Shown here: piece after piece, positions 1,403 through 6,472 of the stretch
How positions within the stretch are numbered: the first letter of the stretch is position 1
Layout of the letters: each line of letters starts with the position of its first letter
NCBI GenBank assembly: GCA_018830405.1
Contig: JAHJSF010000080.1
Span: 1 to 6,472, forward strand
From: Nitrospinota bacterium
GTDB taxonomy: Bacteria; Nitrospinota; Nitrospinia; UBA9942; JAHJSF01
Direction: 5' to 3'
Length of the DNA stretch: 6,472 nucleotides
Program-made: the position numbers and the translations under genes
The notes under the pieces: generated by a model
Seen by the model: the letters and a program-made list of their open reading frames with translations, nothing else
What the model was told of the DNA's origin: nothing
Database searches by the model: none

Positions 1403-2053
1403 ATGGTTAATCTTTATCACGTGTACAAAAGATACGGCTCGGCCCAGACTTTATCGGACATTACTTTTAAAGTCGACAAAGGAGAGTTTATCTATATAAC
1501 CGGTCCGAGCGGGGCGGGCAAGTCAACCCTTCTCAATATCCTATTCTGTTCTATATCCTTTAATGAGGGACAGATAGTAGTCAACGGGAAAAATATTCTT
1601 AAGATGAGAGATAGTAGTATCCCCTACTACAGAAGAGATATTGGGATGGTCTTTCAGGATTTTCAACTTCTGACCCATAAGACCATATTTCAAAATATCG
1701 GTTTTGCCCAACATGCAGTCGGGACATGGGGAGCCAAAGCTAAACAGAGGGTCTGGTGGAAACTGAAAGATGTCGGGCTGACAACCAAGAAAGACCATTA
1801 CCCCTTAGAGCTGTCGGGGGGAGAACAGCAAAGAGTGGCCGTAGCCAGGGCCTTAATAAATAACCCCAAGATAGTTATGGCCGACGAACCTACCGGAAAC
1901 CTTGATGAACAGATGTCAAACCAAATTATAAGGCTCCTCCAAAAGGCGAATGAAGAGGGGGCAACCGTTTTATTCGCCACCCATAACGAAAGGTTGATAG
2001 AAAATTTTCCGGCCAGGGTTATCAGGCTGGATAAAGGGAGGATGGTCGAATGA
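1403..2053 (+). CDS. ftsE: Cell division ATP-binding protein FtsE
   Basis: This is the cytoplasmic ABC-type ATPase of the FtsEX complex, which acts at the division septum and powers regulation of peptidoglycan hydrolysis through FtsX. All nucleotide-binding motifs are intact in the 216 residues. They are Walker A GPSGAGKST (34-42), Q-loop Q85 in MVFQDFQLL, signature LSGGEQQR (137-144), Walker B IVMADEP with the catalytic E162, D-loop NLD (166-168) and switch H194. The FQDFQLL sequence after the Q-loop and the TGNLD block are characteristic of FtsE. The length is normal for the family, which is usually around 220 residues. The stop overlaps the ftsX start by ATGA, as expected for two subunits made together. 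It is the first gene of the plus-strand operon, and the preceding 538 bases carry no gene. Confidence 0.96.
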   Translation: MVNLYHVYKRYGSAQTLSDITFKVDKGEFIYITGPSGAGKSTLLNILFCSISFNEGQIVVNGKNILKMRDSSIPYYRRDIGMVFQDFQLLTHKTIFQNIGFAQHAVGTWGAKAKQRVWWKLKDVGLTTKKDHYPLELSGGEQQRVAVARALINNPKIVMADEPTGNLDEQMSNQIIRLLQKANEEGATVLFATHNERLIENFPARVIRLDKGRMVE

Positions 2054-2952
2054 TACGCCAATTTGTTTTCTCCGTTGTCGAGGCAATGGATGGGGTAAAG
2101 AGTAACCGAGGGACAACTCTCCTGACCATCGGAACAATTACTGTCTCAATCTATTTCATGGGTTTCTTTTTTGTTTCTCTGACAAACCTAAACAATATAT
2201 TTAACAGCCTAAAACAAAGGTCGAGCTTGGTTGTCTACCTAAAGGACAATCGGCCTGAAAGGGAAATAAAAGACCTCGAAAGCTGGATAGCCGAAAACAA
2301 AGACGTCGCCACAATGAATTATATATCCAAGGATGACGCCTTGGCCGACTTCAAAAAAGAATTTAAATGGGACGAATCGGTTTTGGAAGGGATAGGCCAT
2401 AATCCGCTCCCGGCCTCATTTGTTATCACCCTCAAAGGCGGGGCAAAAAACTTAGAGGCCATTGATGGCATTGCTGCCGACCTGATTAAGTTTAAAGGGG
2501 TAGAGGATGTTGAGTATGGGCGGGAATGGGTAGAGCAATTACGATCTCTTATCGCTATCGCCCGCCTAATTATAGTAGGAGTGGGGATACTCCTGGCCCT
2601 GGGGCTTCTTTTCATCGTCTCAAACACGATTAGTCTATCCATATATTCAAGACTGGACGAAATAAAGGTTATGAAATTGGTTGGGGCCACAAAACGTTTC
2701 ATAAGAGGACCATTCGTTGTAGAAGGAATAATAGAGGGAATAATCGGTTCGATAGCCGCTATGATCTTTCTATACGGCTCCTACCTAATATTAATTTTCA
2801 AAATACCTGAATCAACCATCATCTTGCTCGGTCTACAGGAGATATCCTTCCTCTCCCGAGCTACAATTTTTTGGCTGATTGCCTCCGGCGGATTGATAGG
2901 ACTAATCGGCGCCGAGATAGCCATAAGTAAAGTGATTAGGATAAGAGATTGA
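2050..2952 (+). CDS. ftsX: Cell division protein FtsX (membrane subunit of FtsEX)
   Basis: FtsX is the membrane partner of FtsE. It passes ATP-driven changes to periplasmic activators of cell-wall hydrolases. The 300 residues show the standard layout. There is a short cytoplasmic N-terminus and a first helix (about 23-45), then a periplasmic domain (about 46-165) with the NPLPASFVITLKG block (118-130). Three more helices follow, at about 168-192, 222-250 and 272-294. The conserved cytoplasmic loop SNTISLSIYSRLDEIKVMKL (191-210), followed by VGAT, is the strongest family marker. The start is set by the ATGA overlap with ftsE and a GGAGG at 2037-2041, eight bases upstream. The last base of the stop codon is also the first base of a large inverted repeat that fills the gap to the next gene. 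Confidence 0.95.
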   Translation: MIRQFVFSVVEAMDGVKSNRGTTLLTIGTITVSIYFMGFFFVSLTNLNNIFNSLKQRSSLVVYLKDNRPEREIKDLESWIAENKDVATMNYISKDDALADFKKEFKWDESVLEGIGHNPLPASFVITLKGGAKNLEAIDGIAADLIKFKGVEDVEYGREWVEQLRSLIAIARLIIVGVGILLALGLLFIVSNTISLSIYSRLDEIKVMKLVGATKRFIRGPFVVEGIIEGIIGSIAAMIFLYGSYLILIFKIPESTIILLGLQEISFLSRATIFWLIASGGLIGLIGAEIAISKVIRIRD

Positions 2953-3106
2953 TACGGAGTCGCATTCAAACGCTAACTACGTTGGCTTCGTCGTCAGCTC
3001 CTCGACATACAACCCCCTATCCCCCTTTGTTAAGGGGGAATAAGGGGGTTGTACGTCGCCTCCTCCTGGCCGCCTTGTTATCATTTTGAATGCGACTCCG
3101 TATGAA
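2949..3106. repeat. Large nested palindrome filling the ftsX-envC junction
   Basis: The outer arms are a perfect 19-bp inverted repeat, ATACGGAGTCGCATTCAAA at 2952-2970 and its reverse complement at 3085-3103. One mismatch aside, the match extends to 2949 and 3106. An inner pair, CGACATAC (3003-3010) and GTACGTCG (3051-3058), closes the centre with one mismatch. The loop of that pair is occupied by a separate C/G-run hairpin (3008-3053). The element therefore appears composite, with one palindromic repeat lodged in another. It starts on the last base of the ftsX stop and ends inside the start region of the next gene. It encodes nothing convincing and would form a long hairpin in the operon mRNA. 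Confidence 0.85.
3008..3053. repeat. C/G-run hairpin, copy 5, inside the ftsX-envC palindrome
   Basis: TACAACCCCCTAT and its counterpart AATAAGGGGGTTGTA form an outer stem around the core CCCCCTTTGTTAAGGGGGA (3021-3039). This is the most compact and symmetric copy in the window: one core, with both ACAACCCCC ends present. It is close to a minimal form of the elements at 167-256 and 890-1056. Confidence 0.8.
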
Positions 3107-4298
3107 TATAAAACGACTCCTTAGATATGTGGCCGTCACACTCCTTATAATTTCTCTCCCTTTATCTGCGTTTTCGGCCAAGGATAATATAGACAGCCGG
3201 ATAGCCAAAGGGACTGAAACCTTAAACAAATTAAATAACGAAATCGTCAAAAATAAAACAGAACTGGCCCGCTTAAAAAAGATGGAAGATTCCATAACCA
3301 ACCGACTCAACACAATAGACCGGAAGATAAAGCTGACCGACAACGAAATAGCCGTTCTTAAAATCGACCTCGATAAGAATAGACAAGAGGGGGAGCGGAT
3401 AAGAGGGGAAAGAGGAATAATTCAAAAAAATATCAGCGATAATAGTGAGCTGCTCAGCAAGCACATGATAAGGCTGCATAAGGAAGGACATTTTTCCTTC
3501 CTTAAGGCTGTCCTTACTTCCAAAAACTTTTCCGACTTTTTAAGGAGGGCCAAATACTCAAGAATATTGGCCAAAGAAGAGGCGAGGGTCTTACGTAGCC
3601 AGAGGGAAGAAGAGAAGAAATTTGACAGGATACAGATAGAATTAAACAGCAACGAGAGTAAAATTAAAAATCTTATAGAGGGAATATCGAGCAAAAAAGT
3701 AGTCGCCCTCGAAGAGCAGAGAAAGAAGAAGGGGATGCTTGAAGATATAGCCGTCAAGCGCGAGGTCTACCTGAAACATAAAGAAGAGGCGGAAAAAGCG
3801 GCCAAGGATCTGTCGGCCCTCCTTGGAACCTTAAAAAGGAAGGAGAAGACTGCCTATGTTCCCCAAAAAGGTTCGACCAACTTTGCTAATATGCGGGGGA
3901 AACTCCCCTGGCCTATATCGGGAAAAATAATATCCCCCTTCGGAAAGATAAAAAATCCAAAATTCAATGTCTACACATTCAACAACGGTATAGAGATACA
4001 AACCCGCCCCGACCTGGAGGTAAAGGCGATACATGACGGGCAGGTTATCTTTGCCGACTGGTTCAAAGGTTACGGCAAATTGGTCATTGTTGACAACGGC
4101 GGGGGCTACTACTCCCTCTACGGCCATCTGGATAAGATAGAGGCCCCGATAGGGAAGAACATATACTCGGGGAATGTTTTGGGCTATTCGGGAGAGACCG
4201 GTTCTATAAACGGATATACCCTCTATTTTGAGATAAGGAAAGATGGGAAACCTGTTAATCCTCTGATATGGCTGAACAAGAACAGAAGGGTGGCCTGA
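3090..4298 (+). CDS. envC: EnvC-like murein hydrolase activator (signal peptide, coiled coils, degenerate LytM/M23 domain)
   Basis: This is an exported protein of about 400 residues, probably the periplasmic partner of FtsEX that activates cell-wall amidases. Numbering is from the ATG at 3090. A signal peptide is visible (basic NIKRLLRY, a hydrophobic core, and AFSA with cleavage probably after A30). Charged coiled-coil segments run at about 35-125 and 155-250. A C-terminal LytM/M23 fold (about 270-397) carries the EnvC-like blocks VKAIHDGQVIFADWFKGYGK, YSLYGHL and LYFEIRKDGKPVNPLIWL. Three metal or catalytic positions of active M23 enzymes are replaced: the GIDI region reads NNGIEI (N298, E302) and HLHF reads TLYF. 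Only H346 remains. This loss matches activator-type EnvC. The start is uncertain. ATG at 3090 and ATG at 3102 both lie in or at the edge of the inverted repeat, and neither has a visible Shine-Dalgarno. The 3102 start gives the more typical signal peptide. The gene symbol is assigned by architecture and position next to ftsEX. Confidence 0.85.
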   Translation: MRLRMNIKRLLRYVAVTLLIISLPLSAFSAKDNIDSRIAKGTETLNKLNNEIVKNKTELARLKKMEDSITNRLNTIDRKIKLTDNEIAVLKIDLDKNRQEGERIRGERGIIQKNISDNSELLSKHMIRLHKEGHFSFLKAVLTSKNFSDFLRRAKYSRILAKEEARVLRSQREEEKKFDRIQIELNSNESKIKNLIEGISSKKVVALEEQRKKKGMLEDIAVKREVYLKHKEEAEKAAKDLSALLGTLKRKEKTAYVPQKGSTNFANMRGKLPWPISGKIISPFGKIKNPKFNVYTFNNGIEIQTRPDLEVKAIHDGQVIFADWFKGYGKLVIVDNGGGYYSLYGHLDKIEAPIGKNIYSGNVLGYSGETGSINGYTLYFEIRKDGKPVNPLIWLNKNRRVA

Positions 4299-6278: not shown

Positions 6279-6345
6279 CAACCCCCCGCCCCCCTTTTCT
6301 AAGGGGGATTTACTATAACCCCCCCTCAATTCCCCCTTAACAAAG
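6278..6345. repeat. C/G-run element, copy 6, apparently truncated on the right
   Basis: The left half is intact: ACAACCCCCC, then a core of six C, TTTTCTAA and GGGGGA (about 6289-6307). The right half starts normally as TTCCCCCTTAACAAAG (6330-6345), but the expected GGGGG and GGGGGTTGT end are missing. The sequence changes abruptly to CTTGCTATATTG. This suggests deletion or replacement at about 6345. Confidence 0.65.
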
Positions 6346-6455
6346 CTTGCTATATTGTGGAAAGGGTTTAAGCCATACTTTATGTAATAGGCTATACTCC
6401 GGAAAGAATTATAAATAAGTTGGTTAAAATTCAACCCGGAGAAAGGAGTACAGCC
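6346..6455 (+). promoter_or_regulatory. Leader of the next gene with a stem that ends beside its ribosome binding site
   Basis: CTCCGG (6397-6402) can pair with CCGGAG (6436-6441), and inside it GAATT (6406-6410) can pair with AATTC (6428-6432). The 3' strand of the stem lies directly before AGGAG (6444-6448), which is seven bases before the ATG at 6456. TATACT at 6393-6398 could serve as a -10 box, but no clear -35 lies at the right distance. Whether the hairpin controls translation or is incidental cannot be decided here. Confidence 0.4.
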
Positions 6456-6472
6456 ATGAAAGGATCTAACAC
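6456..6472 (+). CDS. Start of a gene leaving the window (first six codons)
   Basis: An ATG at 6456 follows a strong AGGAG Shine-Dalgarno (6444-6448) at seven bases. The visible residues are M-K-G-S-N-T, too few to identify a family. It is separated from the preceding operon by more than 200 bases with a repeat, so it is likely a separate transcription unit. Confidence 0.6.

Follow-up and report, generated by a model that had tools for sequence, protein, structure and literature searches.

A composite palindromic element, probably inserted as a unit, at the ftsX-envC junction of a Nitrospinota genome

The ftsX-envC junction

The window analysed here (6,472 nt) is the whole of contig C52 of a 1.42-Mb MAG that is 87% complete. 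It contains ftsE, ftsX, an envC-like M23 peptidase gene and ribF, and between ftsX and the envC-like gene lies a palindromic element with a second palindrome at its apex. The outer element belongs to a repeat family termed A, and the inner one, a C/G-run hairpin, to a family termed D. The junction is made up as follows (TSD, target-site duplication):

2050..2952, + strand: ftsX (Pfam FtsX_ECD and FtsX), an ORF whose TGA stop is the insertion target
2950..2952, no strand: left TSD copy, 3 bp (TGA), from the TNA duplication across 31 copies and the ATGA found here in relatives
2952-2970, + strand: left terminal inverted repeat, ATACGGAGTCGCATTCAAA, its first base being a TSD base
2953..3102, + strand: composite element, a putative family-A MITE (core TACGG..CCGTA) with the family-D hairpin in its apex, from genome copies, TSD and alignment
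3009..3052, + strand: family-D C/G-run hairpin in place of the family-A apex loop, from C/G-free copies, D sites genome-wide, family B (see below) and alignment
3085-3103, - strand: right terminal inverted repeat, TTTGAATGCGACTCCGTAT, its last base being a TSD base
3102..4298, + strand: envC-like gene (CC_PcsB coiled coil and peptidase M23), from Pfam and the orthologues that follow ftsX in relatives
3102-3104, + strand: envC start codon ATG, part element and part TSD
3103..3105, no strand: right TSD copy (TGA), which with the last A of the element (3102) gives the envC ATG

The 19-bp arms are perfect and can be extended to 23 nt at 96% (2948-2970 and 3085-3107), with an inter-arm distance of 114 nt; arithmetic gives a chance expectation of about 1e-6 for such a pair in a 6.5-kb window. 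As an earlier, sequence-only reading had stated, the left arm starts on the last base (A) of the ftsX stop TGA (2950-2952) and the T of the ATG (3102-3104) closes the right arm, but these coordinates include TSD bases and the element proper is 2953-3102. The same reading had rightly placed a C/G-run hairpin in the middle, although its limits of 3008-3053 took in one flanking base on each side of the 44-nt hairpin. A search of the window with Rfam covariance models gave no match.

In five relatives of the same order and several of the same class, the gene following ftsX is the envC orthologue, the two genes overlap as ATGA, and the element is absent. In the window the junction reads GAT TGA [TACGG..CCGTA] TGA ATA, in which the left TGA still serves as the ftsX stop, and the last A of the element together with the TG of the right TSD forms the envC ATG. 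Because TGA is duplicated on insertion and an A comes from the element, the stop is kept and the ATG is rebuilt, and the view that neither gene was broken is borne out. When emptied, the site of this MAG reads TTGA, as opposed to ATGA in the relatives, which reflects either an original TTG start or a later mutation of the left base. In relatives of the same order (L140-L144), short tandem repeats occur in the first envC codons (e.g. AGTAGGCAGT and CAGAAGT), so that this junction has received a further repeat there.

The same start-codon arrangement was found in this MAG at gcvPA (C27:5026), ruvC (C20:829) and cobS (C151:17166). It recurs in other genomes, at a 324-codon ORF (L134) and, following a stop codon, at a RemA-like gene (L122); gene names other than ftsX and envC were assigned by reading the protein sequences. 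Thus, the 3-bp TNA duplication and the terminal A let the element sit exactly on the stop and start codons of tight operons with both proteins unaltered. With overlapping junctions excluded from the null (a loose one), 11 of 53 insertions hit stop codons (P about 4e-6). With overlapping junctions counted, the stricter null left 10/53 at stops versus 9.8% expected (P 0.03) and 5/53 at starts (P 0.38). Targeting of these codons is therefore marginal for stops and without excess for starts, and we do not claim a target preference; that harmless insertions survive suffices to explain the positions.

Distribution, ends and affinities of the outer element

The outer family, described by the sequence-only reading as present once, is indeed single in the window but occupies about 45 loci in the MAG when the two ends of each copy are merged. 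The basic form is near-palindromic, about 124 nt long, with ends TACG..CGTA. Complete copies (124–192 nt) are dispersed, shorter than 500 bp and without coding capacity. About 10 other full-length or nearly full-length copies share 88–96% identity with the window element across about 150 nt that include the C/G core, and the commonest full-length form in this MAG bears D. Six full-length copies of 124 nt (C151:17166, C23:12227, C185:1905, C130:3578, C167:19411 and C169:3276) have no C/G core and carry a short palindromic loop. In addition, minimal hairpins of 51–87 nt with both ends intact and the centre lost were observed at L172, L173 and L174, which suggests that loss or replacement of the apex occurs readily.

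An exact scan of GTDB genomes, in which the right-end pattern matched 21 stretches, detected family A also in Deltaproteobacteria nzgw173, HGW-Nitrospira-1, Nitrospirae DP16D_bin.35 and Ca. Solincola sediminis; it was not found in the 99 relatives searched. All complete copies in these four genomes are about 124–125 nt long, lack the C/G core and keep the short palindromic loop. That the family occurs in several phyla suggests horizontal movement.

If TACG..CGTA is taken as the core, matching between the flanks peaks at a TSD length of 3 bp (0.69, versus about 0.30 at 6–8 bp). The TSD consensus is TNA, perfect in 13 of 31 copies (permutation mean 4.1, maximum 11), with the middle base matching in 23 of the 31, and the duplication recurs in the other genomes (12/24 perfect; permutation mean 3.7, maximum 10). 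The two ends co-vary: in 52 copies, 7.13 of 9 outer positions are paired versus a shuffled mean of 5.86 (maximum 6.29), a figure to which shared ancestry contributes. This sequence signature of mobility fits a DDE-type MITE.

Bacterial MITEs are well described, e.g. Chunjie of Geobacter uraniireducens, ERIC and QMITE2 (review PMC10969869). Family A resembles them in being short and non-coding, with terminal inverted repeats, a target duplication and tens of dispersed copies, which are mostly intergenic, form a stable hairpin and include truncated forms. It differs in being a sequence family of its own, in its TNA duplication, in having a second palindrome at the apex of most copies here, and in that no autonomous parent or transposase gene with family-A ends was found in this MAG or the other host genomes, all of which are incomplete. 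PF01609 is absent from this MAG and PF13359 from all five genomes, while the PF01609 genes of two other host genomes are without family-A ends; because the MAG is 87% complete, the absence of a transposase from it is weak evidence. A pair of terminal inverted repeats 2 kb apart in nzgw173 was considered as an autonomous parent and rejected, as it encloses SurA-like genes and no transposase. IS5-like (PHIS) transposons use a 3-bp AT-rich target, with TNA duplicated by NuwaII and ANT given for bacterial IS5 (PMC4482050). Family A likewise shows a 3-bp duplication of the TNA/TWA type, TNA as in NuwaII; unlike PHIS, it has no linked DDE transposase, and its TNA differs from the ANT of bacterial IS5. 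Since both PF01609 and PF13359 are absent from the MAG, family A was not filed as IS5-derived. Rickettsia palindromic elements are defined by in-frame insertion within coding sequences, whereas the checked family-A copies lie between ORFs or on stop or start codons. Family A is a new family whose composite form is unusual, and not a new kind of system.

Formation of the composite and its predicted RNA hairpin

The C/G-run core of family D occurs at about 128 sites in the MAG, mostly outside family A. It is also found in the apex of a second palindrome, family B (ends GTGTTTAGTTGC..GCAATTAAGCAC, apparent TA target duplication), where it again replaces the apex loop; family B measures about 161 nt by itself and about 192 nt when it contains D. 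About 45 copies of family B were observed (L081-L110), and a good many have the C/G hairpin at the apex. Although the ends of families A and B are unrelated, both have a similar stretch beside the apex (GGCTTcGTCGTCA..CCTCG), so that exchange of D between them by recombination is possible.

The sequence-only reading had proposed two unrelated elements, one nested in the other, which would instead be a single element if every copy of the outer repeat had the C/G centre. That centre is missing from six full-length copies here and from every complete copy in the four other genomes, and D exists alone and within another palindrome family; the nesting of two separately mobile elements is therefore real. 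It is a clean case, with single and nested states in one genome and an empty junction in relatives. The further proposal that the two elements inserted successively at ftsX-envC is not supported and probably wrong, since at about 12 other loci D occupies the same place in the apex and has replaced the same loop. Alignment shows common D junctions (left ..CGACAT, right ..GTCGC) and the same lost loop in the window copy and in about a dozen further ones, variant junctions also existing (e.g. C120), and 10 complete composite loci aligned with the window copy have a mean identity of about 92%. The most economical interpretation is that A+D arose a single time and was thereafter copied as a unit, so that, judged from these sequences, insertion of a ready-made composite probably accounts for the ftsX-envC site. 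The shared junction could also have spread by gene conversion between copies.

We thus consider it very probable that the element is one copy of a non-autonomous transposon, a D-bearing family A that was amplified as a composite and inserted into the TGA of the ftsX stop and envC start. Family A (about 124 nt) would have gained the D hairpin in place of its apex loop, the resulting composite (about 152 nt) would have amplified in this genome, with A+D presumably spreading as a unit, and one copy would have entered the TGA common to the two genes, perhaps mobilised in trans by a DDE transposase. The junction would tolerate the insertion because duplication of TGA beside the terminal A restores both codons. 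That family A arrived at this locus first and D entered its apex afterwards is unlikely. In other A copies (C167:15385, C71:2001, C71:8960, C126, C105, C109 and C65) D sits elsewhere and replaces larger parts, which indicates that D enters A repeatedly, but repeated independent hits on the one junction seen at about 12 loci are less likely than one event followed by amplification. That the C/G core is native to a single element and the C/G-free copies are deletions could be argued from the predominance of the D-bearing form in this MAG, but is scarcely credible, given the loop-bearing, D-free complete copies of all four other genomes and the many D sites outside A, family B included. Small repeats nested in one another are also known from the BOX, RUP and SPRITE repeats of Streptococcus pneumoniae (PMC3049150); the sequences differ, and in A+D the nested form itself has been amplified.

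The composite is predicted to form a single long hairpin (-84.3 kcal/mol, z -9.5), with the ftsX stop and envC start at its base and, in most predicted folds, the A and U of the AUG paired in the stem. Such a stable structure might be taken for a host regulatory hairpin, an attenuator or translational switch for envC, but this is very unlikely, as the same sequence recurs, with target duplications, beside unrelated genes at some 45 loci, and the ftsX/envC junctions of relatives are without it. As an addition to insertion of the composite, we also considered that the RNA hairpin may be looped out at initiation, so that the old Shine-Dalgarno (SD) sequence and the rebuilt AUG act as neighbours, for which the chances appear low. 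The earlier envC SD region (AGGA) is now 150 nt upstream, and native-looking SD sequences (AGGA, GGGAG, GAGG and GGA) stand about 6–8 nt before the element, on its 5' side, at envC, gcvPA, ruvC and cobS. Among the start-codon insertions, folding predicts a closed terminal stem in 6 of 7, and T4 genes 38 and 25 (PMC3014915) provide a precedent for a split ribosome-binding site bridged by a hairpin, which there likewise lies between SD and AUG. On the other hand, the AUG is partly paired in most folds, the terminal stem of the D-free cobS copy is predicted not to close, and the T4 spacers are just 22–27 nt, whereas those here are 124–152 nt and come from a mobile element, bypass in this case being a prediction. 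One may speculate, with considerable doubt, on a mobile hairpin transparent to translation, which would land in ATGA junctions and restore stop and start while its stem brings the SD or the terminating ribosome to the new AUG, making insertion into an essential operon nearly neutral. If ribosomes do bypass the hairpin, this would explain the spread of such repeats through dense genomes.

Further palindromes and repeats in the genome

REP dimers lie within longer palindromes in Anabaena variabilis (GTAG-15) and H. neapolitanus (CGTC-1) (PMC3733652), and A+D is similarly a small palindrome regularly found inside a larger one. Unlike REP dimers, family D has no GTAG or CGTC tag, and no RAYT flanked by the D palindrome was found in the MAG, whose single Y1 transposase (RAYT-like, C26) has other inverted repeats. 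This gene was rejected as a partner of D or A, being unrelated to either; it lies between inverted GTGACGGGGTCAGGTCTTGCAATG repeats (L176), and upstream of it is an ORF with repeats of the calcium-binding type.

L117, L022, C50:880-1000 and C130:7040 contain palindromes of a third family (..CAGACCGAGGCGCGAC..), which likewise occurs with the C/G hairpin in its apex and in L117 is apparently inserted into a family-A element. Four contig ends (window 6331-6472, C91:6598-6734, C115:1-132 and C135:10447-10514) share the start of a putative insertion sequence (TTGCTATATTGTGG.., followed by the ORF start ATGAAAGGATCTAACAC). Each of these starts directly follows a C-run and then ..AGCAAAGC or AACAAAGC, which is the loop region of a C/G-run hairpin. 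In C91 that hairpin is itself within a family-A element, possibly representing a third level of nesting.
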